DNA of 48,171 nucleotides, taken from positions 1-48,171 of IMG/VR virus record IMGVR_UViG_3300034418_008669; one strand, written 5' to 3'. This stretch comes from a virus. A program made the translations under genes and the position numbers. Shown here piece after piece: positions 11,404 through 37,500 of this stretch. The notes under the pieces were generated by a model that worked only from the letters and a program-made list of their open reading frames with translations, was not told the origin of the DNA and made no database searches. Position 1 is the first letter of the stretch. Every line of letters starts with the position of its first letter.

Positions 11404-11474
11404 TAGATTATATTAAATACACTTAAAATAAAGACTAGATATTTAGAGATAATTTTATCATATAATGTTCTATA

Positions 11475-11532
11475 AAAAAAGAATTACTATAATATAAATA
11501 AAATTAGTTAAATATTATAATAGTTCTTTTTT
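11475..11532 (+). terminator. Long AT-rich inverted repeat, probable terminator (or operator)
   Basis: The 21-nt arm at 11475-11495 pairs with the arm at 11512-11532 at 19 of 21 positions by Watson-Crick rules, plus one U-G wobble and one C-A mismatch, around a 16-nt loop. The right arm ends in TTCTTTTTT and is followed by ATTTTG, giving a U-rich tail. It sits 71 bp after the last fibre gene. The right arm is also the upstream half of the 50-bp promoter-like element, so a dual role (terminator plus operator) is possible. Confidence 0.55.
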
Positions 11533-11557
11533 ATTTTGTACCTTTGGCTATTATATC
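11508..11557 (+). promoter_or_regulatory. 50-bp promoter-like element, copy 1
   Basis: This aligns gap-free with 19851-19900, 40 of 50 positions identical, with conserved blocks ATTATAATAG and TACCTTT-n3-TATTATATC. TACCTTTG at 11539-11546 fits the Bacteroidota -7 consensus TAnnTTTG; no clear -33 TTG is visible. It ends 7 nt before the ATG at 11565, so the transcript would have a very short leader. Confidence 0.65.
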
Positions 11558-11564
11558 TTAAAAT

Positions 11565-12770
11565 ATGAGTAAATTAAGTAAGAATAAACAAGCATTAATT
11601 GAATACCTCGTAGAGAATTCAGGAAAACCAGGTAAATACACCTGGACAGATTTAGCAGAAACCTTTGATGTAAAAGATACAAAAGGAAATTACTCAGGTG
11701 AAAATGCTAGACAACTCTGGAAGAACTACAGAAAAACAAGTAGAAAAAATATGCAAGAAGCAGAAAAAACAGAGTACAGTGACTACAAACAAATTGTAGA
11801 AGACTTAGACAAAGACAACCTGAAGGTTAAGAGTATCTGGACTAATGGAGACAGAGTAAACATTAGTGTAGTTCCAGATTACCAGAAAGAAGAAGAGGAT
11901 TTTTCCTCTGTATTGAAAGAAACTTTATTAGAGCACATTAAGAACTCTAAGACAAAGTTTAAAGCAGCTAAGAAGTCTTACCCTAGAAGTAAGATAGGAG
12001 TTGCAGTAACAGCAGACTACCACATAGGAGCTTATATAGAAGGTCTTATTAAAACTAAAGATTTTAGTGTAGAGGTAGTAACTGATTATCTAGACCAAGT
12101 AGCTGAGGATATTAATAGTTTTAGATACTCAGAAGTTCACTTAGTAATACTAGGTGACCTTATTGAGTCTTTTACTGGATTAAACCACATCAACTCTTGG
12201 AAAGGAATGCAATCAGGTATGTATGGTGGTAATGTAGTAATTATGGCCTATGAGATAATTAGAAAGTTTTTATCTCAAATTAATAACCTTAAAGAGGTTT
12301 ATATGGTTAGTGGTAACCACGACAGAGTTACCTCTAGTAACAAAGAAGATGTTGAAGGAGATGTATGTAAGTTATTAGCATACTTTCTAGAAGACAACTG
12401 TAAAGGAGTACAATTCTCTTTTAGTCCTATGGTGTTAACTAAAGTAATAGATAATATCTGTTACATTATGACACATGGACATTTAGGATTTAGCTCTAAA
12501 GATATGGGTAAGATTTTATTCCAGTATGGTAAACAAGGATATTTCAATGTTTTATTATCTGGACATTACCACACAAGAAGAAGTTCTCAAAATGTAGTGC
12601 ACACTCAAACTATTGGAGAAGATAATGCAGACTACAGAAGTATTATATGTCCTTCTTTATTTACTGGTAACTTTTACTCTGAATCAAATGGGTGGACTTC
12701 TACAGCAGGTTATCTAATCATAGAGAATAGATTTGATAAACCTTTAGTAGTGGATATACCACTATCTTAA
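11565..12770 (+). CDS. Calcineurin-like metallophosphoesterase with N-terminal helical/HTH-like segment
   Basis: 401 residues. The phosphoesterase motifs occur in order: D151-Y-H153, G-D198-L-I-E, G-N251-H252-D253-R, H304-G-H306 and G-H334-Y-H336, which together form the two-metal site of the calcineurin/Mre11-SbcD superfamily. Likely substrates are DNA ends or another phosphodiester. Residues ~5-60 (NKQALIEYLVENSG ... TWTDLAETF ... ENARQLWKNYRK) look like a winged-helix or HTH module, suggesting DNA targeting. First gene after the promoter-like element and ahead of the tail block. Nuclease activity cannot be told from phosphatase activity by motifs alone. Confidence 0.85.
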   Translation: MSKLSKNKQALIEYLVENSGKPGKYTWTDLAETFDVKDTKGNYSGENARQLWKNYRKTSRKNMQEAEKTEYSDYKQIVEDLDKDNLKVKSIWTNGDRVNISVVPDYQKEEEDFSSVLKETLLEHIKNSKTKFKAAKKSYPRSKIGVAVTADYHIGAYIEGLIKTKDFSVEVVTDYLDQVAEDINSFRYSEVHLVILGDLIESFTGLNHINSWKGMQSGMYGGNVVIMAYEIIRKFLSQINNLKEVYMVSGNHDRVTSSNKEDVEGDVCKLLAYFLEDNCKGVQFSFSPMVLTKVIDNICYIMTHGHLGFSSKDMGKILFQYGKQGYFNVLLSGHYHTRRSSQNVVHTQTIGEDNADYRSIICPSLFTGNFYSESNGWTSTAGYLIIENRFDKPLVVDIPLS

Positions 12771-12782
12771 TATTTTAAATTA

Positions 12783-12804
12783 ACCCCTCAGGGAACTGGG
12801 GGGT
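12783..12804 (+). promoter_or_regulatory. GC-rich hairpin with GNRA tetraloop in an AT-rich leader
   Basis: ACCCCTCAG (12783-12791) pairs fully with CTGGGGGGT (12796-12804; one T-G wobble) around the loop GGAA, a GNRA tetraloop. It stands 15 nt before the ATG at 12819 and has no T run after it, so a classic intrinsic terminator is unlikely. Possible roles are mRNA processing or stabilisation, or partial attenuation between the phosphoesterase and tail genes. Confidence 0.6.
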
Positions 12805-12818
12805 AAAATCTTATAAAG

Positions 12819-13511
12819 ATGACTATAAATGAACACATAGCACATATCCAAACTTTGTTTAACTCTGGACTTGCTTCAGATGATAAGAAGTTATCTGATA
12901 TGCACATTTACCATTTACTGAAACTAGTTAGATCTAGACTATTGTATGAGAAGCAGAATAAAATGTATAAAATATCTGACTTCTCATTTCAATATATACC
13001 TTGTCTTAAGTTAGAAGAAGGTTTTGTAAATGACTGTCCTTGTGTACCACAAGACTGTCCTGTATTAGTGTCTAAGCCACTTCCTAAGCTTCTAAACTGG
13101 AGAAATGGGTATATGCTTAAGGTAACTACTTTAGATGGTGTTACAATCCCTGAAATAAGCTTAGCTAAATATAAATACCAAAAGTACAGAAAGACTCAGC
13201 TTTCTAAGTATGGGTGGTTTATTCATGACGATAGATTAATTGTAGTAGGAGACTTGAGATTGTGTTTAGTATCTTTAAAAGGATTATTTGAAGACCCTAC
13301 TGAACTAGAGGGTATTAGTATATGTGATTCTGAGGGTAATGAAACTCCTGCTAAATGCTATGATGTAACTAGTGATGAGTTTCCAATAGATACAGAGCTA
13401 GTAGATACAATGTATAAACTAGTTACAGACCAGTTAGCTGCAACATATCAATTACCTCAAGATAATGAAAACAATGCAAAGTCTGTTGAAACAGTACAAG
13501 GGAAAGAATAA
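12819..13511 (+). CDS. crAss-like structural (ring-type) protein
   Basis: 230 residues. The sequence pattern (LSDMHIYHLLKLVRSRLLYEKQNK-type helix, a cysteine knuckle D72-C-P-C-V-P-Q-D-C80, YKYQKYRKTQ, WFIHDDRLIVVGDLR, GLFEDPTELE) matches from memory the structural protein that precedes the IHF-like gene in crAss-like phages (the gp77 position of p-crAssphage). These proteins are thought to form part of the portal/tail ring assembly. Four closely spaced residues of the knuckle could bind zinc. TAATG overlap with the next gene. Confidence 0.7.
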   Translation: MTINEHIAHIQTLFNSGLASDDKKLSDMHIYHLLKLVRSRLLYEKQNKMYKISDFSFQYIPCLKLEEGFVNDCPCVPQDCPVLVSKPLPKLLNWRNGYMLKVTTLDGVTIPEISLAKYKYQKYRKTQLSKYGWFIHDDRLIVVGDLRLCLVSLKGLFEDPTELEGISICDSEGNETPAKCYDVTSDEFPIDTELVDTMYKLVTDQLAATYQLPQDNENNAKSVETVQGKE

Positions 13512-14810: not shown

Positions 14811-14824
14811 CAAATATAAAGTGA

Positions 14825-17800
14825 ATGAGTAAAAGAGGACAAAATAAAGATATGGATCAAGACTACCAAGATTATTTGAATTACAAAAAAAGTAGTAATA
14901 AATTATCTACTAGGTCTGCTAATCCTAATAGTGCAAGTCAAGCTGTAGGAAGTATTATGACAGATACATCTCCTAACAATCAGCCAGATAATACTACTAG
15001 ATTTGTTTTAAATGGTGTATACAATTCAGACGAAGGAGACATTGGATTTATATCCAATGAAGTAGGATACAGCAAATTAGAAGACATTCCTGAAGGTTAT
15101 AACCTTGTAGGAAATATACCTCTTTTAGACGGAGAGGTTATTTTATTTTTAGCACCTATAAATCCTACTTCTCCTTCTAGAATTGTAAGACATAATAAGA
15201 ATGGTAACCTAGAAGATATTATAGTATCTACTGGATTAAACTTTACTACTCATAAATATATCAAAGGTAAATGGAGACTTCTCAATCTTTGTGAGACAGT
15301 TATCTATTTTGTAGATGGTACTAATCCAGATAAAGCTATTAACTTAGCTAGACTTTCAGATTATACAATTAATAATGTAGATGCTGCTATTGCCAATGCT
15401 ACAGATGCTTGGAATATGCAGTTAATGGAATTAGAGCAAGGATATACACACCCTGTAATAAACTTAAACAGAGTTATACCTTCAGGAGGTAGATGTCAGT
15501 TAGGGGCTTACCATTTTGCTATTAGATATAAAAATGAAGCTAATGATGTATCTAACTACATTGCTTTTTCTAATCCTGTACTTGTAAGTCAGTTTAATAG
15601 TAGCTACCAACAGAGACAAGGTGGAGACCCTTTGTTTACAGAGTTAAACTATTCTATAGAATTAAATATTTCAGGACTAGATACTAGTTATCCTAACTTT
15701 GAAATTATAGCAATAGAGACTGTAGAAGGGATTTCTCAACCTTATATTGTAGCTACTTTGACTACACAAAGTGAAGTTACTTATGTATTTAGAGGAGTAA
15801 GAGATAACTCTATTTCTATTTCATTGGTAGACCTTACAGTAGATAGAGCTTCTTATGAAAGTTCTGAGACTATAGAAATATTTGATAATAGATTATTTAG
15901 AGCAAATCTAAAAGATAAAGATATTGCTTGGGGAAAGTTCCAACAAGCTGCTAATAGAATTCAAACTAAATACTTTACAAGAGCTATCCTTCACGAAGAG
16001 GTACAAAACAGATACTCAGGTTCTGCAGATGCTAGAACTACTTTTGATAACAGAAGTTATATGAGGGATGAGGTCTATGCCTTAGGTATTGTATGGGTAT
16101 TTAAAGATGGAACTACTTCTCCAGCATTTCATATCCCTGGTAGACCTAAAAATGAAGCTGCTTGGAATACTCCTATTAGTACTAACTTATTAAACAAAAA
16201 CAGAACTAATGGATCTGGAAATAATGCAGACATATCTTTTGTAGGACAAAGAGTAAATAGATTTCCTACTGTAGCTATTCCTGGTGGTTCCTATCCACCA
16301 TTGAGTGATAGTAACTGGGATGATTATAGTCTCAGTGATATAAGACATACAAATACTGATATTGGTTATAAGAATGACGCAGATTCCATGCCTGGAGCAG
16401 AAGAAAGATGGGAAGTTTACAATACAGCTTTACAAGAGTGGTGTATAGTAGATCCAGATGCTACAGGAGGACCTTATCCACCATATATGAATTCTGCTTT
16501 AATAGATACTTTTGGCAATAGTATAAAAAATGAAGACTGGCTTACTGAAGATTCTTCTCCAGGTAGTTTATTTGGTTTACCTTTTAGTACAGGTTATTTA
16601 GCATATTGGGAAAGTGAATTTGATTATCCAGATTTTGAATGTGATGGAGAAAGAATATTTCCAGAGGGGAAGATAAGACATCACAAGATGCCTGACAATG
16701 CTCTAGAACCTCACTTTTGGAATTTATGGGATAAGGAATACATTTTACCTTTAGGAGTAGACTTTTATAATATAGTAGCTCCTGCAGAATATGCAGACCA
16801 AGTACAAGGTTATTACATAGTAAGAGCTGAAAGAACTGTAGATAATAAAACAGTATTAGACAAAGGTATTGTCTATCATAACGTAGCTCATTTCCTTCCA
16901 TTGCAATCTGGGGATCTTCCAGAGAGCCCTCTTAAGATATTAACAAACACTTACTCAGAAGGTGTTGGGATGACTTTTGATTGGTCTTTCCCTTTTAATT
17001 CAGATTATTATGCATTCCATACTCAAACTTGTCTGGGTAATAGACATTGGTTTGACGCTGGATTTGCAGGTGGTCTTAGGATAAATAGTTCTGATTATAA
17101 CCCTTCTTCTAATGGTTTCCAAAGTGGAATGCTTTTTGGGAGGAATGATGGCAGCACACTCTGTATGAATTTTTCAGATAGTGACGCAGGAATAGAAGGT
17201 GCAGAACAAGCTATAGATGTATTTAACGTAAGTTTTCACTCTCCTAAAGCTAAGTTTAATGTCCAAGAGTTAAATATGGACTACCTTAAAGCTGAAGGAA
17301 TTTTACAAGGTCAATGGAGAGGTGGAGGAGGAAATAGAGGTATATGGGTAGCTAGAGAAGAAAAAGTTATGTCTCATCATGTTATAGATTACAATAATTG
17401 GCTACCTTTAAGACTATATAATACAAACTTTTTAAATCAAGATTACTTTTCGTTAAATACCAACTACAAGGTTATAGATGAAAAGATAATAGAACCTCAT
17501 GGTACTTATCCTATTTCTTCTAAGAATCTCTACAGAAGAGATTACTTTAACACTGGAAATTTTGAACCAGAAGAAAATTTTATCAATTTTGTAAATGTAC
17601 AACAACAAGATACTTTATTTCTAAATCTTGATAAAAGAACCCCTTTACCTTATTTAGACCAATGGATGCAGTGGGCTGCTCATCTTATAGTAGATAATGA
17701 TGATTATAGAGATGGTTCTTCTGCTGCGTGGTCTTCTATAAACTATGTTGCTGTAAATAAATATGAACCCCCAACTGCTGAGCAGTTAAATTGTAGTTAT

Positions 17801-19837
17801 TGTATATACGCAGCTGCTAAAATAAATAATAGACAAATCTATGGCTCTTTATTAGATATGCAGTATATTATAGCTACTAGTTACTTTGATTATTCTCCTT
17901 TGTATAGTATTCAGACAGCTACTCCACAAGTAGACCAAGGATTTGTTCTCAGTAGAGTTAAGGCTTATGGCGGAGATACTTTTATCTCTAAGTTTGCATT
18001 CTTAAGAAATTATGTTACTAGAAATTGGAGTAACAAAGATTATGAACAATTATGGAAAGATATTCCATATTACTTTGTAGAGTCTGAGATTAATGCAGAG
18101 TTAAGACATGAGCAAATAGATGAAACAGTGGGAGACTTAGCAGATTTTGCACCTCAAAATACTTTCTTTCCACTAAGAGGAGAAAGTGAGTTTCTTAGAA
18201 ACTGGGATTTTGTAAGATGGCGTGGTACAACTTGGGGTGAAGCAGATAAGGATGATCTAAACGAGGTAATTGAAAGGTATATAGATAATGAATATGTCAA
18301 AAACTTTTATGCTTATAATACTGATTATTCTATTCAGAATGTTTTTAAATTCTTTTTTCCTATTACTAATAGTAAATTATATTGTGGAGGTTGTTTAAAT
18401 CAATACCCACACAGAATAGTTTATTCTCAACAAGGTGAACAAGACAAGAGTATAGATAGAATGAGAATTTTCTTAGCAGAGGATAAGAAGGATATAACAA
18501 CTAATCATGGCCCTATAACTAATTTATTTACTTATTCAGATAACTTATTTGCACATACTACACAAGCTTTGTTTATACAACAAGTTAAACCATTCCAATT
18601 AAATACTGATGCATTAGATACTGTATTTGTAGGAGTAGGAGATGTATTAGATGTTCCAGAAAAAGGTTTAAATGTTACTGAGACAGGTTATGCAGGTAGT
18701 CAATTTAAAGAAGCTACTAAAGTTACAGAGCATGGTGTATTCTTTCCATCTACAGACAAAGGAAGTTTATTCTGTTTAACTGGAGAAGGATTAAGTGAAA
18801 TTACTTTAGATGGTAATTTTAACTGGGGTAAGAGAGAAATACCTTTAAATTTACTAAACCAGTTTAACAAACTTACAAATACAGACTATCCTTACTTAGG
18901 AATACTAGATAATAAATCTGTAGGTATGATGTCTACTTATGACGAAAGAAATAAGAGATGGATATTGACTAAAAAGGATTTTAAAATTATAGATGAAAAT
19001 AATTTCTATTACTTTGAAATAGAGGACTTACAAGATATACTTCAAGGAGAGTTAGTTCCAGAAGGAAGCCTGTTTTTTACAAGTAGAGATAATACTTTTG
19101 GAACAGTGATTAATTCTAATTATGAATATAAAGAAGTTACTTTTCAAGATGAAGAGTTTTTTGAAAACTTATCTTGGACTATCTCTGTAAATGCTATGGA
19201 CAAAGGTATTAAATCTTTCCATAGTTATATTCCTAACTTCTTATACAATAATACTAACCAATGGTTTAGTCATTACTACGAAGACTACAGTATATATGAG
19301 CACAATAAAGGTAAATACTTATCTCCTTTTATAGTAGAGAAAGTAAATATCTTTAATATGCTATCTACTTTTAGTTCAGCTTCTCTAAGTTTAATTACAG
19401 ATGCTTATGACTATAACAGCCAGTATGGAGAGTATGTAATAGATAATGATACTACTTTTAACAAGGCAGTTATTTATAATAATTTCCAAAGTACAGGTCT
19501 AATCAATTTAGAACCTAAGGTATCTCCTTTCCAAAAGCCTAGTAATAATCAAAGTATACTAATTAATAAATATGAAAGAACTTGGAATTTAAATGGCTTT
19601 AGAAATAATGTAGTAGATGAGACTCTGCCTATGTTTACACAGAGATGGCAAGATATACAGTCTGATTACTATATAGATAAATTACCTAACCAAAATGTAA
19701 TAGATTACAACAAATCACTATTCAGAAAAGAAAAGCTAAGAGACAAGTTTTTAATTACAAGACTTATCTATCAAACTGCTAATCCTAAGAAATTAGTGTA
19801 CAAATTTAATATAGATAAATCTAAAATTAGTTTTTAA
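14825..19837 (+). CDS. Giant tail stabilization / muzzle protein (P22 gp10-like)
   Basis: 1670 residues, unusually large. The N-terminal ~300 residues carry the hallmark of crAss-like stabilization proteins: NQPDNTTRFVLNGV ... EGDIGFISNE ... LPEGY-type (IPEGYNLVGNIPLLDGE), FLAPIN, HNKNGNLEDI, LNF, then LCETVIYFVDGTNPDKAINL. This resembles the propeller-like hub of P22 gp10 relatives. The rest is a long beta-rich region with many aromatic residues and no catalytic motif. It would form the distal tail hub or muzzle through which DNA and cargo proteins leave. It is the last gene of the unit begun at 11565. Confidence 0.75.
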   Translation: MSKRGQNKDMDQDYQDYLNYKKSSNKLSTRSANPNSASQAVGSIMTDTSPNNQPDNTTRFVLNGVYNSDEGDIGFISNEVGYSKLEDIPEGYNLVGNIPLLDGEVILFLAPINPTSPSRIVRHNKNGNLEDIIVSTGLNFTTHKYIKGKWRLLNLCETVIYFVDGTNPDKAINLARLSDYTINNVDAAIANATDAWNMQLMELEQGYTHPVINLNRVIPSGGRCQLGAYHFAIRYKNEANDVSNYIAFSNPVLVSQFNSSYQQRQGGDPLFTELNYSIELNISGLDTSYPNFEIIAIETVEGISQPYIVATLTTQSEVTYVFRGVRDNSISISLVDLTVDRASYESSETIEIFDNRLFRANLKDKDIAWGKFQQAANRIQTKYFTRAILHEEVQNRYSGSADARTTFDNRSYMRDEVYALGIVWVFKDGTTSPAFHIPGRPKNEAAWNTPISTNLLNKNRTNGSGNNADISFVGQRVNRFPTVAIPGGSYPPLSDSNWDDYSLSDIRHTNTDIGYKNDADSMPGAEERWEVYNTALQEWCIVDPDATGGPYPPYMNSALIDTFGNSIKNEDWLTEDSSPGSLFGLPFSTGYLAYWESEFDYPDFECDGERIFPEGKIRHHKMPDNALEPHFWNLWDKEYILPLGVDFYNIVAPAEYADQVQGYYIVRAERTVDNKTVLDKGIVYHNVAHFLPLQSGDLPESPLKILTNTYSEGVGMTFDWSFPFNSDYYAFHTQTCLGNRHWFDAGFAGGLRINSSDYNPSSNGFQSGMLFGRNDGSTLCMNFSDSDAGIEGAEQAIDVFNVSFHSPKAKFNVQELNMDYLKAEGILQGQWRGGGGNRGIWVAREEKVMSHHVIDYNNWLPLRLYNTNFLNQDYFSLNTNYKVIDEKIIEPHGTYPISSKNLYRRDYFNTGNFEPEENFINFVNVQQQDTLFLNLDKRTPLPYLDQWMQWAAHLIVDNDDYRDGSSAAWSSINYVAVNKYEPPTAEQLNCSYCIYAAAKINNRQIYGSLLDMQYIIATSYFDYSPLYSIQTATPQVDQGFVLSRVKAYGGDTFISKFAFLRNYVTRNWSNKDYEQLWKDIPYYFVESEINAELRHEQIDETVGDLADFAPQNTFFPLRGESEFLRNWDFVRWRGTTWGEADKDDLNEVIERYIDNEYVKNFYAYNTDYSIQNVFKFFFPITNSKLYCGGCLNQYPHRIVYSQQGEQDKSIDRMRIFLAEDKKDITTNHGPITNLFTYSDNLFAHTTQALFIQQVKPFQLNTDALDTVFVGVGDVLDVPEKGLNVTETGYAGSQFKEATKVTEHGVFFPSTDKGSLFCLTGEGLSEITLDGNFNWGKREIPLNLLNQFNKLTNTDYPYLGILDNKSVGMMSTYDERNKRWILTKKDFKIIDENNFYYFEIEDLQDILQGELVPEGSLFFTSRDNTFGTVINSNYEYKEVTFQDEEFFENLSWTISVNAMDKGIKSFHSYIPNFLYNNTNQWFSHYYEDYSIYEHNKGKYLSPFIVEKVNIFNMLSTFSSASLSLITDAYDYNSQYGEYVIDNDTTFNKAVIYNNFQSTGLINLEPKVSPFQKPSNNQSILINKYERTWNLNGFRNNVVDETLPMFTQRWQDIQSDYYIDKLPNQNVIDYNKSLFRKEKLRDKFLITRLIYQTANPKKLVYKFNIDKSKISF

Positions 19838-19850
19838 TAAACAATATTAA

Positions 19851-19900
19851 TTAAAAATTATAATAGATTTATTTAATTTACTACCTTTATATATTATATC
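19851..19900 (+). promoter_or_regulatory. 50-bp promoter-like element, copy 2
   Basis: Gap-free match to 11508-11557 (40/50 identical). TACCTTTA at 19882-19889 departs by one base from the Bacteroidota -7 consensus TAnnTTTG, while the downstream TATTATATC block is fully conserved. It ends 3 nt before the ATG at 19904. It occupies nearly all of the 66-bp gap between tail and cargo genes, so it probably starts the 26-kb cargo transcript. Confidence 0.65.
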
Positions 19901-19903
19901 GAA

Positions 19904-22405
19904 ATGATGAGAAAAGTAAAAGCGAAAGCAAAGGCAAAAGTGAAAAGTCCTAAAAAGAGTTCTTTAGAGAGAATGGGCATAAATCTTTACGGAGATAATG
20001 TGGCAGCTCCTAAGTTAGAATTACCTACTGCCCAATTTGGAAAAGGGGTATTAGGCAGGAGTACTCAGCCTGACCCAGGAAGTATTCGCAGTACTACTAA
20101 AACTTCTGCAATAGAGGAAGCTAAAAGGAGGCAAGAGGCTAAAGACCAGGGTATAGGTAAAACTATTGGACTTGGTGCTGCAGGATTTCTTACAGGAGCA
20201 TTATCATCAATTCCTATAATAGGAGGAGCTTTTGAAGGTTTAAATGAAAAAGTTCAAGAAAAAGATAAGTCAGGTGCAGCTGGTATTGCATCAGGTATTG
20301 GTAAAGCAGCTGTAGGAACAACCTCTGCAGTTCTTTCTGGAGGTACTATGGGTACTGGAGATATTGCAGAAGGAGTAGGTGATGTAATGGGAGGTTCTTC
20401 TGAGATAGCTTATAATAAAGGTAATGATAAAAAGAGTGAAAGACTAGGTAAAGCTGAACAAGCTTTTGATACTATAGCTCCTATAGCAGATATGGCTAGT
20501 GGATTTGCAGGAGGAATTAAAGGAGCTGAAGGAGCTGAAGGAATGTTTAAAGGCCCAGAAGGATTTAAAGGTGGTATGAAATCTTTATTAGGAGGTACGC
20601 CTTCTGCTGAAGGTGGAATGAAAGGTGTAATGAAAGGTTTTGATACTCTTGATAGTTTTGATACTTTTGATATGAATACAACTTCAGAAGTTAATTCCTT
20701 ACCATTTGGTAAATTTGGAACTAAACTACCTTTAGAAATGGAATTGATGCCTGAAGGTGGTAAGATGGTAGATGGATATTTACATGAAGAAGGTGGAGTA
20801 ATTACTAAACATAGAGGAAGAGCTGTTGCTGAAATAGAAGGAGGAGAAGGAATTACAAAAGGAGGAATAGTGTTTAGTGATACAACTATTAACCCTGAAA
20901 CAGGTAAACCATTTAGTAAAGATGCTAAAAAGTTAATTAAATCAAAAGATAATTCTAAAGAAGGTGAAACTACTAGAAGACTAGCAGAAGAAGAATTATA
21001 TATTAAACAAGAGAAAGCCAAAGAAATGCAAGGCTTAGTAAATAGAGGAGAGAACATGAAAAAATATAAAAAAGGTGGTTCATTAAAAGCTACACCACTT
21101 GACAATAAAGGGTTACCACAATTACCTGAGTCTGTACTCAATCAAATGAATTACATGAAAAAAGATGGAGGACTTCGTGCTAAAATTAATGTGAAAAATA
21201 AGACCCGTGTAAAGGAAAAACTCAGAGAAAAACCTGCTAAACTTAAAAAAAATGGTTACACTATGGGTGAATATAACTCTTTTAAAAATTATGCAGGGAA
21301 TGCAGGACAAACTCTAAGTACTAATGATGTTGCTAGATTAAATGAATTGGGTTTTACAAAAACTTATAATTTAAATGACTTCTCTAGAGGTTTTAATAAA
21401 TTACAACAGCCAGGAGGGACTTTAGATCAAAACTTTTTACCTAACTTTAAAGATGGAGGGAAAGCTTCTAAAAGTGGTAAAAACTCAAAGTCACCTAAAA
21501 ACAGTTTTACAGACCTAGAATTAAGATCTCTAAAAGTATTACCAAAAAGTGGCAGTTTAAAATTAGATAAGTTCAAGCAAAACAAGTTTGATTACGAGAT
21601 GGGAACTCCAAGTATTCAAGGAGATATATACAGTTCTACAGAAGAAACAGCTGCAGGAAAGCCTAAAATTAAAAGTCTTTCAGAAAGATTTTTGAGTAAT
21701 CCAGATTACTCTTCAAAGTATAATAAAATAAAGTCTCTTTACGAGAAAAAAAAGAAAGAAAAAGATGGAGAAGATGGAGAAAGTAATCTAACTCCTGGAG
21801 ATATAACTCAGTTAGCTGGAAATGCAGTTGCTCCTTTAGCTAACTTAGCAGCTATGAGAAGTATCAGAGAAAATACAGTAGATCTTGGTAGAGATAGAAG
21901 TATTATAGAAGAGAAGAAAGTGAGTACTGCTGATTTAGAAAGAGCTGCTAGACAAGAAGCTGCAGCCACAAGAGCAGGTTTAACTCAGTTAGGTAGTGAT
22001 GCTATGAAATCTGCTGTAGCAGCTGGTGCTACTAAAGCTATTCAAGATGCTCAACTAGAAGCTGGCAGATTAAACACTCAGTTAGCTATGTCAAAAGACC
22101 AGTTAGATATGCAAAGGTCTCAGTTTAATGTTGGACAAGCAGATAAGGAAGCAATAGATAAACAAACTAGAAAAGATTTAGCCACTACTACTGGACTTAC
22201 ATCTGCAGAGCAAACAGGTAAACTTTTGGTAGATTTAGGTTTAACTAAGAACCAAGGTCTTACTAATGCTGCACAGTTAAAAGTATTGAGAGAAGCTTTC
22301 CCTGAGTTTACTATAACTCAAGATAATATGAAAAGTGTCATAAGAGCTTTAGCTACTGGGAAAGAAGAAGATATTATGAAATTTAGAAAACCAGAGGGAG
22401 AATAA
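19904..22405 (+). CDS. Virion cargo / ejected structural protein with Gly-zipper and GG-rich modules
   Basis: 833 residues. The basic start (residues 2-22, KAKAKAKVK) is followed by a glycine-rich hydrophobic stretch at ~85-115 (GLGAAGFLTGALSSIPIIGG), resembling membrane-inserting segments of ejection proteins. Residues ~285-340 carry the phage module GYLHEEGGVITKHRGRAVAEIEGGEGI ... FSD ... (run split: GYLHEEGG, AVAEIEGGE). KKGG-type repeats and Lys-rich linkers follow, and the C-terminal ~200 residues are helical. In crAss-like phages such proteins lie between the tail and RNAP genes and are thought to be packaged and ejected. A second ATG at 19907 is an equally good start. No enzyme motif. 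Confidence 0.6.
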   Translation: MMRKVKAKAKAKVKSPKKSSLERMGINLYGDNVAAPKLELPTAQFGKGVLGRSTQPDPGSIRSTTKTSAIEEAKRRQEAKDQGIGKTIGLGAAGFLTGALSSIPIIGGAFEGLNEKVQEKDKSGAAGIASGIGKAAVGTTSAVLSGGTMGTGDIAEGVGDVMGGSSEIAYNKGNDKKSERLGKAEQAFDTIAPIADMASGFAGGIKGAEGAEGMFKGPEGFKGGMKSLLGGTPSAEGGMKGVMKGFDTLDSFDTFDMNTTSEVNSLPFGKFGTKLPLEMELMPEGGKMVDGYLHEEGGVITKHRGRAVAEIEGGEGITKGGIVFSDTTINPETGKPFSKDAKKLIKSKDNSKEGETTRRLAEEELYIKQEKAKEMQGLVNRGENMKKYKKGGSLKATPLDNKGLPQLPESVLNQMNYMKKDGGLRAKINVKNKTRVKEKLREKPAKLKKNGYTMGEYNSFKNYAGNAGQTLSTNDVARLNELGFTKTYNLNDFSRGFNKLQQPGGTLDQNFLPNFKDGGKASKSGKNSKSPKNSFTDLELRSLKVLPKSGSLKLDKFKQNKFDYEMGTPSIQGDIYSSTEETAAGKPKIKSLSERFLSNPDYSSKYNKIKSLYEKKKKEKDGEDGESNLTPGDITQLAGNAVAPLANLAAMRSIRENTVDLGRDRSIIEEKKVSTADLERAARQEAAATRAGLTQLGSDAMKSAVAAGATKAIQDAQLEAGRLNTQLAMSKDQLDMQRSQFNVGQADKEAIDKQTRKDLATTTGLTSAEQTGKLLVDLGLTKNQGLTNAAQLKVLREAFPEFTITQDNMKSVIRALATGKEEDIMKFRKPEGE

Positions 22406-25510: not shown

Positions 25511-28500
25511 ATGAGTAAATTATTTGATTTATTAAAAAATACAAAAGGATACGAAGGACTTATTTTAAATCCTTCTTCTAAATTTGAAAAAAGTTGGTTT
25601 GAAGGTAGTGCAGGTCAGTACACAGGTTCTATGTCTATAGATGAACAAAACACTTTTTTACAAAAAGGGATAGACTGGAATCCTAGTAATTTAGGTTATT
25701 CTCAAGACCAGAGAGCTTTAGCTCAGACAGCAGCAGAAAAATGGGGAAGAGCTACTTTACAAATGGGTACTTTAGCTGCTTCTACTTTTTTTGATTCTAC
25801 TATTGGAACAGCCTTTGCCATTGGGGAAAGTTTAATTAATTGGGATGCTAATAAAATAGTAGATAATAGTTTTTCTACCTTAATGTCTAAATGGCAAAAA
25901 TCAGTAGAAAAAAATAATCCTCTATATTATACTAGAGAAGAGAGAGACACTCCTTGGTATCAAAGGTTAGGTACTGCTAACTTTTGGGCAGATACTATTT
26001 ATAAAAATATGGGTTTTACCATTGGAGCAGGTTTATCTATGGTAGCTACTTCTGGAGCTGCCTATGCAGGTTTAACAAAAGCATTTAGTAAAAGATTAGC
26101 AGGCCAGCTCGGGAAAGCTCTAGCTAAGAATGGAGGTAAAGTAACAGATGACTTAGTTAAAAAATATGCTGAGTATGGTGTAAAAAATGGAGATGATTTA
26201 TTTAAATTAGGACAACAGCAACCTAAAATAGCTGCTGATATTTTAAAGGAATTAGAAACTACTAGTAAAACATTAAGTGGAATCAACTTAGCTTCTCAAG
26301 GAGCTGGTCTTGTGGGTTCTGCAGTAGGTGAAGGTAGAATAGAAGCCATCCATGGAAAAGAAGAATTTTACAATGAATTAATATCTCAAGGGTATACTGC
26401 AGAAGATGCTGAAAGACTGTCTACTCAAAAAGCTAATGTTCAGTTTGGTATGAATGTAGGCTTACTTAGTATTTCTAATTTTGTACAATTTAAAACATTA
26501 TTAAAACCTTTAACTAAAGGTACTAGTATAGATAAAATTTTAGGACCTAATTCTGTAGTTGGAGGTTTAAAGAATCAAGCAAAAGATAAATTAGGACTAG
26601 GACTAATAAAAGGTTCTACTAAAACAGGTTATGAATTAGCAGAAAATAATTTAAAAAGAAAAACTGTAACTGCTTTAAGAGTTCTTGGTAATCCTTTAAT
26701 GGAATTTAACGAAGAAATGCAACAAGGAGTCATTGATAACTATTCTTCAGAAATTCTTTTAAGAGCTAATGACGGAGAAGGTTTATCTTTTACAAATGAT
26801 ATTATAGGTCAGTACTTACAATCTGCTGTAGATACTTATACAGACTTTGACCATGCTTGGGAAGAGGGTATAGCTGGTTTATTTACAGGTATGGTAGGTA
26901 GCCCTAACGTATCAAAAGTTTTCGGAGCTAGTGGTCCTTTATGGGCTGGTGGTGTAATGGAAACTGTTTCTGAAATTAAACAAGAAAGAGCACAAGCTGG
27001 AGAACAAGTTACTGCTTTAAATAAAATAATTGAAAGCTCTAGTTTTAAAAATTTATATAAAGGAGCTGTTATCCACTCTTCTTATGAGAATGACATAGAA
27101 AGAAATGAAGCTAATCAAGAAGATGTATCTTTAGCTGTAAATACAACAGCACAACTAGTAAATGATATTATTACTTTTGCAGAAGCTGGAAAATTAGATG
27201 ACTTTAAAGAAACTATAGCAGTATTTGAAAATAGTACAGGTGCAGAGATAAGAGAGTCTTTGTTAATTAATCCTAAAGCTTTAGATGCTAAGGCAGAATC
27301 TTCTGAGTTAATAGACCCTAATAAGAATAAAACAGATGCACAGCTTGAAAAAGAAGCTAAAGAAAGAGCTAGGTATGTTAGTAATAAAATAGATCAAATA
27401 TCTGAATTAAAAACTCAACTAGAGAATAAACTTGGATATTTAAAAAATGCAGATACTATTAGTAGAGAACTTATTACAAATGCTATTGTAGTAGAAGAAC
27501 TTAATAAGAAAGCTATTGATATTACAAATGACTTAATTAAAAATACATTAGCTCCTATTTATAGAGATGTATTTAACAGTGAGTATCAAGGAGAAACTAA
27601 TAGAGAAATAAATAACTCTGCATTAAAATTAAAAGTAAATGATGCTTATGTTTCTATTATGCCTCAAGATATAGTAGATGTATTAGTGGACAACATAGAT
27701 ACAAACACAGCAGAGCTTACAGATGAGCAATATAAAAATAATGTAGAAGAAAATGTAAAACAAAAAGTAGCAGACCTATTCTTGATGGAGAAAAAGGATT
27801 TAGAAAAGTTACTTAAAAAAGAAGACACTAAAGATCTAGATAACTCTGAAAAAGCAGCTATTAAAGCCTATAGAGCTATGTCTAAAGCTATAGAAGCTAT
27901 TGAAAAATCTAAAGAAGGTAAAAAGGAATTAAATAATCTACTCACTATTAGAAATGTAAATGTAGATTTAATGCTAGAGTACCAAGAGATTTCTAAAGAT
28001 TTAGAAGCTCATGATAAAAAGATAGATCAACAGCAAGAAAACATCAACAATGCTAAAGAAGCAATGGAACAAAATCCAGAAGCTTCTTCTTTAGATGAGG
28101 CAGGAGTTTTAAATTGGTTTAAAGAACGTAGACAAAAAGTAGAAAATAATACTTCTCTAGCTAAAGCTGCCAAGTTATTACTACTAAAGAATATCTACGA
28201 AAAAGCTATTGAACTTTTAAATAATTTAAATACTGCTACTTCTAAAGCTAATGCAAAAAAATTATCTGAAGAATTAAAAAGGATTAAAGAAGAGTTAAGT
28301 AAATTAAGAAAAGAAGAAAAAGATAATAAAAATAAATTCTACATAGGTAACTCTAAACTAGCTGAGATATATGATAAATATCTCACAGAAGAGCAAAAAG
28401 CTGCTGCTCAAAAAGCTATTCATGCTTTCTTATATGAATTAACAGATAGTGAAAGAAGTAATGTTGTATCTATAAAATTAGGGGAAGAAGTAGAGTTAAC

Positions 28501-31500
28501 AGATTCTGAGTGGGAACACCCTAAATTTAAAATTAAAGCAGGAAATAGACTTGGTAGAAGAGTAGAAGTATACATTGATTTTTCTAAAATACTAGGAGAT
28601 AACCCTGCCAAAGCTCAAGGTCAAGTTCTTATAGGAGGATTATTAGACCCTAATAGATTTGAACATAAAAAAGGTGGGACATTAGACCTTACAGATAAAA
28701 ATTTATTAGCTTTAATTCAAAATGAAAAAAACCCATTAGTTGATCCAGAAACTTTTGAGTTTACACCAGAAGGAGAAGCTTTCGTAGCTAATTACTTAGC
28801 TCTTAATGATATTTGGGAAACTTCTAAAAAAGAATTAGAAAAGACAGGTGATGTTTCTAGGGTAGAAAAATACTTAACAAAAGTTTTAAACTTACAACAC
28901 TCTGGCTTTAGTACTATTTATGACAAATCAGAACAACCTCTACTAAGAGATAAATACGAACCAACTACTCATGGTATAGATTTAGGATTTGGACAAACTA
29001 TATATGTTACAAACAAATCAGAAACTGTTGTATATGCCTGGAGAGAAGGAAGTGATACACCTCAGAAACTAGACAAAAAAGCTGATGCTGAAGAGTTAAA
29101 CAAATTAAGTATCTTTTTATCTACTACTAGTATTAAAGGTAATAAAGTAAAAACAAGAAAATCTTCATTAATAGGTAGTATGACTAACAAGTCAGATTCT
29201 AACCAACTTAGAGGTGTTATTAAATTAGGAAATTCTTACCATATACCATTTTTACAAGTACCTTATGTAGCTAAAACAGAAGAAGAAACAGTAGAAGCTA
29301 TTTATAATGGTATATTAGAAAAAATAACAGACTTATTTAGTAGGAAAGGAGATGAGCTTGTTTCTTTATCTGATACAGAAGTTACAGTGAATGGTGCTCC
29401 TGTAGGAGTAGTTGTGTCTGGAAAAGATGAAAGACTTAGTTTTGTTAAAATAAGATTAGCAGTTGATAACAAAAATTGGAAGGATAATGTTGCAAGTAAA
29501 AGATTAGCTAACATCCAGTTTAGAGCTTCCTATAAGGAAAAAAACTCATCTACTTATCAAAACAAAACAGCCACAAATGTTTTTGTAAATGGTAAGTCAT
29601 CTAAGCTTATGGCTGTTAACACTCCAAGTGGTGTTAAAATAATGTATGTTGCAAATGAGCTATTAGGTGAAAAAGTAAATGGTAAAGTAACATCATTTGA
29701 TGAAGAAGTACAGTATAACAATATTCTTAATGAACTATCTAAAGAAAGTTCTTCCTTAATTATAGACTTAGGAGATATAAATAATTTAGAAGATTATAAT
29801 ACAGTTTTTAAACAACACTTAAAAGTTCTTCAATCTCTTATTGCAGGTAATAAAGAAAATCCTGGATATGAAGTAGAGCTTACAGATTTTGAAAGAGTTA
29901 CAGAAGAAACTTACGAAGTGGACAAGATGTCTATATCTTCAGATTTAAGAAATGAATTACAGATTAAACCTACCTCTACTCAGTATAAAAAGGGTAAGAA
30001 AAAGCATTCAGAGTTACAAAAACAAGCTGCTAAACCTGCAGCTAAGCCACAGCCTGAAGTAAAATCTGAACCTCCAGTTAAAAAAGGAGATGATGGGCCT
30101 GTAGCTAGTATACAAAAAATATTAGATACAGTAATGGCTAACCTTGATGCTGATAACAATGAAAATGTTATAAAAGGACTAGAGCTATTAAGTAGCTTTA
30201 CTGAGTTTTTAGATAGGACAGGTTTTATAGTTAATAATACACAAAGTAGTGAAACTTTAGATGAAATAATTGATACAGTTGGTGAGCTTGTAGATTTTAA
30301 AAGAACTAAACCAGCAGAAGCTTCTGAAGAAGAGTCTAAAAAAGATGAGGATAAACAATCAGATACTACTTCAGAAGAAATAGAAGTAGCTGACGATGAT
30401 GAGCCTCCATTTACTACAGAAGGATTTGGAGAGTTTGAAACTAGGGAAGAAGCTGCACAAAGACTTAGTGAGATACTAGGTATACCTGTAAGAAGACTAG
30501 AAAATGTTCTTAAAGGTGGTAATGCCTTAGGTATGTTTTTTAATAGTGTTATTTATCTAAAAGATAAAATAAATAGCTCTGTTAAATACCACGAAGCTTT
30601 TCACGCAGTATTTAGAATGTATTTATCTGAAGAAGAGCAAGCTTATTATTATAAAGAAGCAGCTAAAAAATTTGGTAAACCTACAGCTCAACAATTAAAA
30701 GATCTTAAAGATATTATTAGTGGCGAGCTAGGTAGACCTGCTAAAATTTCTAACAAAGAATTATCTTTGTTATGGCTAGAAGAGCAAATGTCAGATGACT
30801 TTGCAAAAGAAGCTATTAAAAAAGATGTTAAAAAACAAAAATTAGCAGAGGCAAAAGGTCTTAAAAGATTATATTTGTTATTCTTAGACCTTATAGACAA
30901 GGTGATGTCTTCTGGTTTATCTACACTTTACAATGATATTTACAATGGAGATTTTAAAAATGCTCAACCTAAGGCTAATTCTGTTATTAGAAAAAATCCT
31001 GCTTTCAAAGTATATGGAAGTAATGTAAAAAGAAAAGGTACAGATGGAGTAGTTAGACCTGATTACATATTTTTAAATAATAGAATGAGTAATATAGTAG
31101 TAAGTGGTATTGCTCAAATGTTATATGAATCAGCTAAAACAAATTCTACTAATAAACTATCTGTTAAGTCTTTTGACGAAGCTTATGATGAGATGGTAAA
31201 AAAATTAGACCCATCATCTTATGATATAAATGATGTAACTAATAAGGTAGCTTACATAGAATCAAAAGGAAAATTTAAAGATTATCAATTTTTATTATCT
31301 TTGGATACAATAAAAGAAGAGATAAGAAAAGATGTATCTATGAAATTAAAACTTTATGATACACAAATAGAAGATGACATAGATGAAGATGATGGAGATT
31401 TTGTAAGATTCCAAAAAAGTATTTGGGAGACTGGTGGTTTTGGTACTTTGTCTAAAAGAATGAAAACTTATTTAGGATTTACACAAGCTTATGCAGATAT

Positions 31501-34500
31501 TTATGGTTTAGGTTTACCTGAAAAAGATATTTATAAATTTAGTATAGACCCTTTCCAAACTTACCAGTATCTTGAAAGAAATTTAGTAGGCACTCCTAAA
31601 CCTCAGTTGTTAGACAAGTTTAGAATATTAGCTACTGCAGATAATGTTTCTAAAGATGTATATAACAATTTAGTAAAAGATATAGCTGATGAGTTAAATA
31701 TGACTGTTGCTTTAGTAGAAGATTTGATTGAAGCTAGAAATATAAGTGAGTTAGAAAACTCTCCTTTATTTAATGACTTTATTTCTACCTTTTATAAGAT
31801 AAAAGGAAATATGTATATGGTAGAGATGGATCCTAAGACAAGGACTACTTCTATGTACCATTCTAATTCTAAGGGAGTAGATGACACACAAGTACAAGAG
31901 TGGAGTAATGAGCATACTAATATACTAGAAGGGCAAAGTGACAGAAAAGAATACGTATTATCTAAGGTATTAGAAATAAAACAAATACTAGAAAAACCTG
32001 TTAATACATCAAAAGAGCTTTCTAAAAAGGCTTTAGATATTAAAAAAGTCTACAAAGACTTGGGCATAAATTTAGAACTTAATTATATTAAATGGAGTCT
32101 TTTAAACAGAGATGGTTCAAAATTAATAAAAGAAGATGCTTTCTTAAATAATTTTTACAATACCTACAAAGGAAGTATAGAGTCTATATTTGCAGTAGAA
32201 GGAAAAGAAAGTGTAACTCCATTCCATGATTTAATTAACACTGTCGCAAGTTCTGGTAATACTATAAATAGTGTAGCTGGTTTATTTACTAAATCAGAAA
32301 AAGACCAAAATGTTAAAGATGTTAACATTATAGGTATGTCTAAAAGGGTTGCTAGATATAATGCTGTATTTAACCCTCATTTAACAGAATCTACTTTCTT
32401 GAATGCAGAAGGTAAGCAGATTTATGATAAAATATATCCTTCTTATATTTACGAACAATTAATGAAGCTTAATAAAATATTAAGTGAAGAAGATAATTAT
32501 GTACAACTTCTTGAATTATTAGATAACAATGACTTAGAAGGAATACAGACATTCTATACTGACACTATGGATAGTTATATGGATATGTATGAAATTCAGA
32601 TGCTTTCTGAAATGCTTCGATACAATCCTATGTTTAGTAGTGAGCAGTACAGAGAGAATCCAGAATTTGCAAAGTATGTATTTAGTAAATTAGATTTTGC
32701 AGTTCACGATGGTTTAGTACAAAGAGATACCAAAGCTTTATTTAAGAGAAAAGACTCAGCTAATTCTTTTAAAAGATTAGATGATACTGCAGCTGAGTTA
32801 TTTTCAATGGCTTTATTTTCTGATACTGAAAGCAAAACAATAGAGTATAAAAACCCAACTACAGGAGAAGTTATAAAACAAAAACTTAGATGGGTACATT
32901 TAGGTCAAAATGAAGGTAAGTCTACTGTATTGTCTGTGTTAATGCCAGCAGATATTTATATTACTGAAAGTAAGAAAAGCCCTATCTTTTTAAATGAAAC
33001 TGGTGCTCAAGAGATGTTTTCTTTATTGTCTCACGAGATAGCTTCTATTAAAAGAGTAAGAAAAGAAGTTGAAATACTAAATGGAGATGACGAAGTTAAA
33101 AAGTCTAAAATAAAATACTCTCCAGATTATCATGGAAAGATAGATGAAACAACTGGGTTAATAGATATTAATACTGCAAGAGGTAACAAGTTTTTTAATT
33201 TTCCTGCTGAGTTTGAAGATTTATTATCAAAAGATACATTTGATTTAGATACTAAATTAGATAATGAAAACACAGTAAAAGAACAACTAGACCAATACTT
33301 ATCACAAGAATATTCTCAATATGAGAAAGACCTTATAGATAGTGGTCTAATGAATAGTGAGTACAAGTCTGATACTATTCCTATGTCTTATATTGGAAAT
33401 GGACAAGTAAATCTCTCTAAGTTAAGAGAATATTTTGTTACAGACTTTTTAAATAGTTTCAAATTTAATTTATATATTCATGGTAACTATGCAGCTAAAT
33501 TTAAAAACCATGAAAATGTTATTAAAAGAAATGCTGAATTAATTGCTAATGGACCTTCTATGCATGTCGGCAATGTTAAATATGCCATAGTAGAATCTCA
33601 AGAAGAGTTAATTTCTGCTTTTGAAGCTATAAGACATGGAGTAGATAAAGAGTTAATAGACTCTGATAAACAAAAGCCTGTAGATAGTACAGATGCACAA
33701 AGTATAGGTACGGTAAGTTTTCTAAAAAAATATTTAAGAGCTTTAGGAAAAGTAACTAATACAGTAGAAAAAGTTTTAACTAAAATAGATAAAGGATTAG
33801 ATTTAGTGACTCCTCTTTCTAGTCAAGAGTTAAAAACATTAGAAACTAACAATGCTACTTTACAACCTAAAAAGATTGTACAAGGAGATATGTTTAGTTA
33901 TATTAAAACATCTTTACATACTCTTACCATATCTCAGGTTGCTAAATTAAAACAAACTGATATTACAGAAGAAGAGTTACTAGAAGCTTGGAAAAATAAA
34001 AAGTATGATGTAATCTTTAATAATATTTTTGAACCTTTACCTGGTAAAGAAGTATTATATGATTTATTACAAAAACAGTACAGACAGGAGCTAGATTTTA
34101 TTACTTTTGATTCTGCAGTAAAAACTTTTAAATCTAATATTAATAAAGTTGATAATGGAAGAGTAGACCTTTCTCTAGTCCAGGAATTATCTTCTTCTAC
34201 TATTAGAGAGCAAGTTAATACAGATGGTTTTAAAGTAGAAGTTGTAGATAGTTCACAAAAATCTCAGTTGATTTGGACAGAGCAAGATCAAATGATGACT
34301 GCTTATTTTATGGACCAAGAGACTAATCCTACTGAGCTACAAAAAGCTTTTCTTCAAATACAACAAGAAAGAATAAAACAAGGATTAGAAGAGATTAAAA
34401 TACCTTCTTTATTTAATATAGATATAGATGGTAATTTGGTAGACCCTAATTGGGAACAGTTAATGTCTTCTATGAGAGCTTCTATGGAGCAATCTACAGA

Positions 34501-37500
34501 GGACCCTTTGATGTCTATTCTATTCCAAGGTTTACAAGGAGAAACTCCTAAGTATAGTATGGACCTACCTGTAATACAGAAGAAATACCAGGCTATGTAC
34601 CTGTCATTTTTATCTAAGAAGGTATTAGCTCATAAAAAAGCAGGTAACAAATATACATTAGTTTCTGATTTTGGAATTAAAGTACAACACAATTCTAAAG
34701 TAATAACTGAAGAAGAGTTTAACAAACTATCTGAAAAAGATAAATCTAAAGTAATATTTGTAAATGGTGAGTATCATCTTGTAACTAAAACTTTAGGAAA
34801 CAAAACAAGGGGAAATGTAGAACACAGATTAAGACACAGAGTATGGGATGATACTTTGAATGCTTATGTTTCTGAAGTTATTGTGTCTGAAAAAGTTTTA
34901 AATAAATTTGGACTTAAAAAGGGAGATGTAATTAGACCAGAAATATTACTACAGTTGGGTGTAAGAATTCCTACACAAGATAAGCACTCAATGGTAGTAA
35001 TGAAAATAGTAGATACTGTACCTTCTTACATGGGTAATATGATACACTTACCTTTTGAGGTTGTTAAGTTATCAGGTGCTGACTTTGATATTGACTCCTT
35101 ATTTGCTACAGCATTCGAGTGGTATGTCAATGACTTACAAGAACAAGTTATCTATGGAGACTATCTAAAAGAAAAAACTATAGACAAAGCTTTAGAAAAA
35201 GCTCATTCAGAATACCTACAATATTTGCATGAAAAAAATGTTAAGGATAACGATAGATACAAAGAATTATTTGAAAGTATCAGAAACAATCTTGCAAATG
35301 AATACAAAAAAGAATTAGAGTACTTAAGTGTAAGTAAAACATTTAAAGCTCTTATGGAAGGTAATGAGACAATGTTTGATACTTTGTCTGAATTCTTTTT
35401 ACAAAACGCTGAAAAAGCTCAAAGTGTAGGACTTAGAAAATTATTAAAACTAAATGAAAGAGCTAAGGAACTAGCTTTACAACAAAATGAGTTGTATATT
35501 TCTCCTGCTCAGTTTAGTAAAAAATATAAAGGTCAAGTTAGAGACAACTTGAAGAATTATAAAGGCAAAAACTTTTCTGAGATAAAAGGTTTAAACCAAA
35601 AAGAAACTAACAACTTATTACATAGATTAGAGACTCAACTTGCCAGTAACGAAGGTAATAAGAAAATTGCAGCTACACCTGCTAGTATGACTATTATTAA
35701 AGACCTTAGAACTAGGCTTGAAAATGAAGGGAAAGTTTCAGTTGAGTCAGGAAAGAATTCTTTTTCTAGAAATTTTAAAAGAAGGTCAAGAAGAAATATT
35801 TTAGTAGGTGCTGAAAACATTGGACCAGCAGCTTTATTTAATATTTTATTTCAAAAATTAAGACAAGCTAATTTTTCTGGAGGTAGTTATTTCAAAGGAA
35901 ATGGTTTTAGAAGTGATACAGTATTATCTTTAGAAACTAAAAAAGAAGTAAGAATTAATGATGTTATTTCAGCTCTTCTTTCTAATATGACAGATAATGC
36001 TAATGAGCAAGATGCTGCTGTATTTAATCTTACTCCTAGTATATTGAATATAGTATTATCAGAAATTGGACAAGGAGTTAGTCCAGAAATAATGTTAACA
36101 GCTGCAGCACAAGAAATGGTAGCTGAGTTAAATAATATTAAAAGTATTCTAGACTCTAATATTAAGACTAAAAAAGCTGAAGAGTATTCTAAAATAATTA
36201 AAGATAGTAAGGATAAGAAAGTAGCTATGAGAAGTATTATTATAAACTCTTTCTTATCTAAAAAAGGATTTAGTAAAAATGAAATTGGAGCTTTTGAAAG
36301 TAAAGGATTTGATTCTAAAGTAATAGAAAATACTAATGAATTTTATGAAAAATTAATCTCTATCTTAAATGTAGAAGAAGGAAGTATTTCTAAGGAAGAA
36401 ATGTTAGAAAACTATTCAATACAATTAGCAGTTGTAGATGCTTTTTTAAATGCTCAAGATTTTTCTACTGACTTCGTAACACCTATGGCTCAACTGTCTT
36501 CCTTAATAAAAGGGTTTAAATCCAGCTTTGAGGAAATACAATTAGAAGAGCCTTTAAAAACATTAGGTTTAGAAGTTGTGAAAAAAGATCCTGAGAAGAA
36601 CACTAATGATATAAATAATTTTGTAATTAAAGAAATAAAAGAATCAGAAGAGTCAGGCCCTAGTGAAATATTAAATTTATTTACAAATACCCTTTTAGGT
36701 CAAGAAGTAAAAGCTGCAGCAGCTTTGTTAGAAAATTCTGACTCATTCTTTATTTCAAAGTCTAGATTTTTTAAATCCATAGTAAATACTGTTACACAAG
36801 GATTTAAAGAAAACTATATGAGATTTGCAGATAATGCTTTTAAAGTAAATGAGGCTGTGGTTTCTAGATTAATGGGTAGCCATTTAAATTTAAACCCTGA
36901 AGTATTATTTGACAAATCTATCAAAGTAACAATAGACAAACTTAGAGAAGAATATCCTAATAACAAATTCTTAAAATACCTATTAGTTAAACCTATTAAG
37001 TTTGAGACTTCTAATAGAACTATGTATGATGTAGAGATTGACTCTTGGACTAGTAGCAACCCTAGTTTTGTAGCAGAGTTAATGGCTGAGTTAAGTATCA
37101 TAGGTAGAAATAAAAAGGGAGATAAAGACATTGATAGTTTATTCCCTAAACTTATCAGTTATTTAATGGTTAAGAATGGACTAACTTTCCAAAATGGTTC
37201 TTATGTAAGATACATTGACCCTTACTTCTTAACTAAAACTAATGATAGACTTATAAAATTAAAAGATTATCTTAGTACTTTAAATCCTTACGGAGTAGGT
37301 AAAGCAGAAATAGAAACATTACTAGGAATGCCTATGCAACAATTTGAGTATGAAACTTCTTTGATGTTCTCCTTAATGAAAAGTAATGAGTTTAATTTAA
37401 ATTTTATAGATAACGCTACAGCTTTTAAAATTATAAAAGAAGCTACTGATAGAATTGAAGAATTAAGCACTGACATTTCAGAAGATAACAAAAAGAATTC

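Follow-up and report, generated by a model that had tools for sequence, protein, structure and literature searches.

Twin leaders with AT-only hairpins at two late operon heads of a crAss-like phage: a probable host-read promoter cassette

Introduction

The late genes of crAss-like phages are probably transcribed by the host RNA polymerase (PMC10136315; PMC8375218). More precisely, the structural (late) genes of phi14:2 and crAss001 have been ascribed to this enzyme, and rifampicin-sensitive late transcription is reported as expected for crAss-like phages (PMC10136315). The literature proposing this role gives no promoter sequences (PMC10136315, PMC8375218). In Flavobacterium johnsoniae, promoters read by sigma-ABfr have a -7 element, TAHHTTTG, and transcription starts 4-5 nt further on; a -33 TTTG is much less evident than the AT-rich motifs at -18 and -28, and is not required (PMC6847099).

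Here, we analyze a 50-nt element that occurs twice in a stretch of viral DNA of 48,171 nt, which we call the window. The original prediction, made from the letters of the window, was that this element may mark a phage-specific late promoter or activator site. We compare both copies with the promoters of F. johnsoniae and with the operon heads of cultured crAss-like phages.

Results

The window and its genes

The window is the IMG/VR record IMGVR_UViG_3300034418_008669 and represents about half of a crAss-like phage genome. Its 4281-aa ORF, in which the motif ADFDID lies near residue 3190, has matches among crAss-like proteins named "putative RNA polymerase", and its tail block (12819-19837) matches gp25-gp29 of FpV4 and, more weakly, g074-g071 of phi14:2 and gp40/gp44 of crAss001. 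With a giant DxDxD RNA polymerase and a tail block of the gp25/gp29 type, the window belongs to a Crassvirales-like phage, i.e. a crAss-like virus of Bacteroidota whose kin are FpV4, phi14:2 and crAss001. The structural genes occupy the + strand up to a GC-rich hairpin near 46081, and the genes beyond it are on the - strand; this is the usual two-armed crAss-like layout.

The gene of the 401-aa phosphoesterase is the first after copy 1 of the element and opens the tail block, the 1670-aa structural gene is the last before copy 2, and the 833-aa gene opens a block that runs through the gene of the probable virion RNA polymerase (vRNAP) (Table 1). The 833-aa protein has no detectable sequence similarity to crAss001 gp45. 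We considered the 401-aa gene as a homologue of FpV4 gp24 and rejected this, having found no homology.

A ferritin-like gene (38363-38851) stands between the vRNAP gene and a 2395-aa gene. A sister contig (L006, IMGVR_UViG_3300005747_000802) is 95-98% identical to the window over most of the overlap; it lacks about 2.2 kb inside the 2395-aa gene (window 39098-41307, with about 19 bp shared at the junction), and near window 38107-38131 it is about 0.4 kb longer.

Table 1. Coordinates of the two copies, their parts and the neighbouring genes in the window.
Feature	Coordinates	Strand	Remarks
Copy 1 of the 50-nt element	11508..11557	+	40/50 identities with copy 2
Copy 2 of the 50-nt element	19851..19900	+	40/50 identities with copy 1
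Copy 1 hairpin (predicted)	11475..11532	+	outer helix 11475-11486/11521-11532 (12 bp), inner helix 11488-11495/11512-11519
Copy 2 hairpin (predicted)	19812..19875	+	outer helix 19812-19823/19864-19875 (12 bp), inner helix 11 bp
Copy 1 -7 box TACCTTTG	11539..11546	+	full TAHHTTTG match, 26 nt before ATG
Copy 2 -7 box TACCTTTA	19882..19889	+	5/6 fixed positions of TAHHTTTG, 22 nt before ATG
TATTATATC, copy 1	11549..11557	+	covers predicted start 11551-11552; predicted leader 13-14 nt
TATTATATC, copy 2	19892..19900	+	covers predicted start 19894-19895; predicted leader 9-10 nt
401-aa calcineurin-like phosphoesterase	11565..12770	+	PF00149, 24.4 bits (cut-off 21.5); phrog_284 "exonuclease"
Virion structural protein	12819..13511	+	phrog_9863; homologue of FpV4 gp25, phi14:2 g074, crAss001 gp40
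1670-aa virion structural protein	14825..19837	+	homologue of FpV4 gp29, crAss001 gp44, phi14:2 g071
833-aa protein	19904..22405	+	first after copy 2; place of crAss001 gp45, phi14:2 g070
4281-aa probable vRNAP	25511..38356	+	ADFDID

Two copies of one leader

The ungapped match of the two copies at 40 of 50 positions, and their ends 7 and 3 nt before start codons (ATG at 11565 and 19904), are exactly as first described. In an all-against-all comparison of the + strand, this pair is the top ungapped 50-mer match of the 48-kb window, and at least 38/50 is reached by two offsets only. Random AT-rich 50-mer pairs of the window match on average at 17.9 positions (sd 3.3, maximum 36 in 50,000 draws). 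Upstream of copy 1 (11471-11507), 24 of 37 positions (65%) match those upstream of copy 2 (P ~6e-4 relative to AT-rich windows), and past the end of the element, at the start codon, the similarity drops to 12/43 (28%). Since the similarity extends upstream and falls after the end of the element, the repeat is one of leader DNA, about 87 nt long, and does not extend into the genes.

Both ATTATAATAG and TACCTTT-n3-TATTATA are confined to the two copies. The three blocks initially singled out as conserved (ATTATAATAG, TACCTTT and TATTATATC) are indeed present in both, but they are not statistically distinct: the 10 mismatches are no more clustered than at random (P 0.48), and the blocks should therefore not be taken as separate sites on that ground alone.

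The runner-up pair of the window is a second repeated leader (1062-1111 and 2076-2125, 38/50 ungapped, TAATTTAAAAACTAATAAA...). It immediately precedes, and runs into, the ATGGC starts of two + strand genes, and has no TAnnTTTG box.

A host-type -7 box in the copies

The identification of TAnnTTTG as the Bacteroidota -7 box is exact for copy 1, which fits the sigma-ABfr element TAHHTTTG throughout, and partial for copy 2, whose box ends in A and lacks the nearly invariant final G. The latter box is also 25 nt before a second in-frame ATG. If the box-to-start spacing of 4-5 nt in F. johnsoniae (PMC6847099) applies here, the predicted starts fall inside TATTATATC in both copies, so that the DNA would melt and transcription begin in the sequence beyond the box, and the upstream block would lie at about -37 to -28. 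Neither copy has a TTTG element at the -33 spacing. The locus thus resembles the F. johnsoniae sigma-ABfr promoter in the copy 1 box, with no G at the two H positions, in its AT-rich upstream DNA and in the distance of 22-26 nt between box and ATG. It differs in the final A of the copy 2 box, in the missing -33 TTTG, and in the likeness of its two copies, which is far greater than that between two ordinary promoters. The further contention that these sequences are not explained by a host promoter is mostly unsupported, as TATTATATC lies over the expected start and the upstream block belongs to a hairpin, as its 3' arm (see below). In the window itself the box is found in one of 11 upstream regions, and is not enriched.

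Boxes at the operon heads of cultured relatives

We searched for the box upstream of the annotated genes of FpV4 (NC_041872), phi14:2 (NC_021806) and crAss001 (NC_049977). Taken together, 14 of their 32 late operon heads have TAHHTTTG, where about 1.1 are expected, versus four of 42 early/middle heads. In FpV4, the box is found at 5/7 late heads (0.41 expected, 0/500 shuffles) and at 2/20 early/middle heads (Fisher 0.005). The corresponding values are 4/14 (0.33 expected, 0/1000 shuffles) and 0/15 (Fisher 0.04) in phi14:2, and 5/11 (0.39 expected, 0/1000 shuffles) and 2/7 in crAss001. Since early/middle heads of crAss001 also carry it, the box is not strictly late.

Host-type boxes are present at the very junctions that match ours. 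At the junction of copy 2, phi14:2 g070 carries TATATTTG and crAss001 gp45 carries TACATTTG, the latter after a GC-containing hairpin and a T-run; at the block head matching copy 1, phi14:2 g075 carries TACTTTTG and crAss001 gp40 carries TATATTTG. FpV4 gp30 is the exception, with no TAHHTTTG box in its upstream region. FpV4 gp24, an unrelated exonuclease gene at the place matching copy 1, has TATCTTTG 12 nt before its ATG. These matches are by gene position, and the first genes themselves have no detectable similarity. Copy 2 thus shares with crAss001 gp44/gp45 (NC_049977, 41880-41986) and phi14:2 g071/g070 the gene junction, a host-type -7 box near the ATG and, in crAss001, an upstream hairpin. 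Apart from the box the sequences are unlike, and in crAss001 the hairpin has the GC pairs and the T-run of a classical terminator, whereas the stem of copy 2 is AT-only and has no clear T-run. The late promoters of FpV4 (Fipvunavirus) have TAHHTTTG 15-41 nt before the ATG at the five late heads mentioned above, but they lack the hairpin, ATTATAATAG and TATTATATC.

Among 45 pairs of host-type promoters of the relatives, identity is at most 31/50. The 40/50 of the twin copies exceeds this maximum, which makes a duplication or a shared regulator likely. The duplication of a working cassette accounts for it most simply, and a shared regulator is possible.

The boxes of FpV4 gp24 and phi14:2 g070 are merely 12-13 nt before the ATG, hence the late mRNAs predicted from them would be leaderless or nearly so. 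Another observation concerns Leptolyngbya phage Lbo-JY46 (PP438436.1), which is recorded as a cyanobacterial phage although its tail genes are crAss-like and TAnnTTTG boxes of the Bacteroidota type occur more often than expected (8/29 and 2/5 upstream regions). Its real host may be a Bacteroidota companion.

Searches for further copies

With gapped three-block scoring of both strands, no third copy was identified in the window or in the sister contig, which adds 22 kb beyond the window and includes the replication half. The two copies score 37.4 and the next best site 21.7, the level of non-promoter sites. In 20 related records, the motif with up to 3 mismatches gave no excess over controls that survived a check of position, and no long repeated upstream elements were found in relatives. 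The exact composite pattern at strict spacing had no match in IMG/VR. At relaxed spacing it matched one unrelated IMG/VR contig, with clamp-loader and sliding-clamp-like genes. The GTDB genomes gave two unrelated hits, in a Clostridia MAG and a Halanaerobium, which is roughly what chance predicts. The proteins of the genes adjoining each copy retrieved no close relatives from IMG/VR, and the only close relative in the collections starts at window position 21910 and so covers neither copy. The TACCTTT-n3 composite of the original prediction is limited to the two copies in the window, and its matches in relatives do not go beyond chance.

These results bear on the best surviving alternative, which we nevertheless find unlikely: a phage activator or sigma-like factor would bind ATTATAATAG, at the -33 place, and/or TATTATATC, and direct the host RNA polymerase to a phage-specific late promoter. 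Such a factor would suit an identity between copies above that of the relatives' promoters, an upstream block lying where TTTG is absent, and the mutually complementary TATAATAG and CTATTATA that flank the box in copy 1 (copy 2 has a similar 10-nt match, at 90%). However, a motif of this type is expected in several copies at the late operon heads of the phage and its close relatives. The lack of a third copy, the absence of the sequence from relatives above controls and the unclustered mismatches do not make the case for it, and the -7 box, the position of the start and the hairpin account for the blocks. What stands of the original prediction is the late promoter, because of the -7 box, the operon-head positions and the host-type boxes at the matching junctions of phi14:2 and crAss001; its phage-specific or activator part is less likely.

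AT-only hairpins upstream of the boxes

The upstream block of each copy forms the 3' arm of a long inverted repeat in which nearly every base is A or T; the stems, of 20-23 bp, consist of A-T pairs apart from a few G-C or G-T pairs at most. The left arm of the copy 2 hairpin overlaps the final codons and the stop of the upstream gene. The predicted folds have energies of -13.4 kcal/mol (z -3.76) in copy 1 and -15.2 kcal/mol (z -4.57) in copy 2, and 0 of 200 shuffles fold as well as either. In a GC-corrected scan of the whole + strand, copy 2 ranks first and copy 1 fifth among distinct places. The 12-bp outer helix uses identical right-arm columns in both copies, ending 6 nt before TACCTTT. Four right-side columns of the helix differ between the copies (11524, 11526, 11528, 11532), and the partner fits in each. 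A contiguous 12-bp outer helix with the same register and 6-nt spacing is formed by 0.1% and 1% of left-arm shuffles and by none of 105 natural AT-rich left arms, and swapping the left arms between the copies destroys the fold. The left arms are offset by 6 nt in the ungapped alignment, so each copy pairs independently, which does not prove covariation; from these two sequences we make no claim of strict covariation.

The hairpins do not have the GC-containing stem and T-run of intrinsic terminators: their stems are followed by ATTTTG and ATTTAC, with no clear T-run, and a terminator scan called neither. No tRNA or Rfam RNA family matched at the element. As a general architecture of the phage group, hairpin plus box was not above control boxes in the relatives.

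The hairpins suggest a second alternative, slightly less probable than the phage-specific promoter and in our opinion doubtful, in which the element acts in RNA. In read-through mRNA, the hairpin would be cut by RNase III-like enzymes, much as the intergenic hairpins of T7 are cut by RNase III, or would switch between the pairings left arm/block 1 and block 1/block 3, and so set the 5' end or the translation of both genes. The AT-only stems with a shared right-arm register and spacing favor it, as does the alternative pairing of TATAATAG with CTATTATA and its counterpart in copy 2. But alternative pairing is cheap in AT-rich DNA, the offset left arms give no strict covariation, no Rfam family matches, and the -7 box and its match to the boxes at the same junctions of relatives are left unexplained. 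To a similarly tentative extent, the inverted repeat and a phage protein binding ATTATAATAG might jointly time the start of the host RNA polymerase at both late operons, with the AT-only repeat acting either as a DNA cruciform or in the RNA of read-through transcripts.

Two other hairpins were observed. A GC-rich one (ACCCCTCAG-GGAA-CTGGGGGGT, about 12780-12805), without T-run, is among the strongest folds of the window; the structural gene at 12819 has its ATG about 14 nt downstream of it. In four relatives (L022, L023, L024 and L033), an AT-rich 13-bp hairpin followed by TTTTT precedes a 238-aa gene and touches its ATG, hence there is no room for a promoter between them.

Discussion

We judge, with a probability of about 0.68, that the phage uses a single late promoter cassette in two places and that the host sigma-ABfr polymerase reads it. 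Most likely, the element is a late promoter of the ordinary host type that carries an unusual AT hairpin, and not a new promoter type. Against this reading we count the copy 2 box without its G, the missing -33 TTTG, the lack of a box before FpV4 gp30, a box that is not enriched in the window, a hairpin-plus-box combination that is not enriched in relatives, the 2/7 early/middle boxes of crAss001, and an identity of 40/50 that needs duplication, a shared regulator or the hairpin.

A promoter for the phage's own vRNAP is very improbable. The phage encodes a probable vRNAP, and the hairpin ahead of the start recalls the promoters of the N4 vRNAP, which have a hairpin before the start site, but the stem, loop and spacing of the N4 hairpins differ from those of the twin copies. 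Moreover, no copy lies in the replication half of the sister contig, and the elements head structural (late) genes of the kind ascribed to the host polymerase in phi14:2 and crAss001 (PMC10136315). Least probable of all is a neutral recent duplication of a leader without function of its own, which fits one ungapped block of about 87 nt with mismatches spread as by chance, but not two copies placed precisely at those operon heads where relatives have promoters, a similarity that stops at the start codon, and diverged arms that still pair in each copy.

With a host-read cassette, the host RNA polymerase and its housekeeping sigma factor, of the sigma-ABfr type, would recognize TACCTTTG or TACCTTTA as the -7 element, assisted by the AT-rich upstream DNA. 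The polymerase would melt the DNA across TATTATATC and initiate 4-5 nt past the box, giving very short leaders of about 13-14 nt for copy 1 and 9-10 nt for copy 2. Copy 1 would drive the phosphoesterase and tail block (11565-19837), and copy 2 the block that starts with the 833-aa gene and runs through the vRNAP gene (19904-46042). In read-through transcripts, the hairpin would terminate the previous operon, weaken it or mark it for processing, a role that we liken to that of the terminator before crAss001 gp45, which probably acts in this way.

The element is a real and useful landmark. Together, the window, FpV4, phi14:2 and crAss001 provide exact predicted late starts at matching gene junctions, for which RNA-seq of infections with cultured crAss-like phages offers an immediate test, and the twin hairpin cassette offers two well-defined places for seeking late control.
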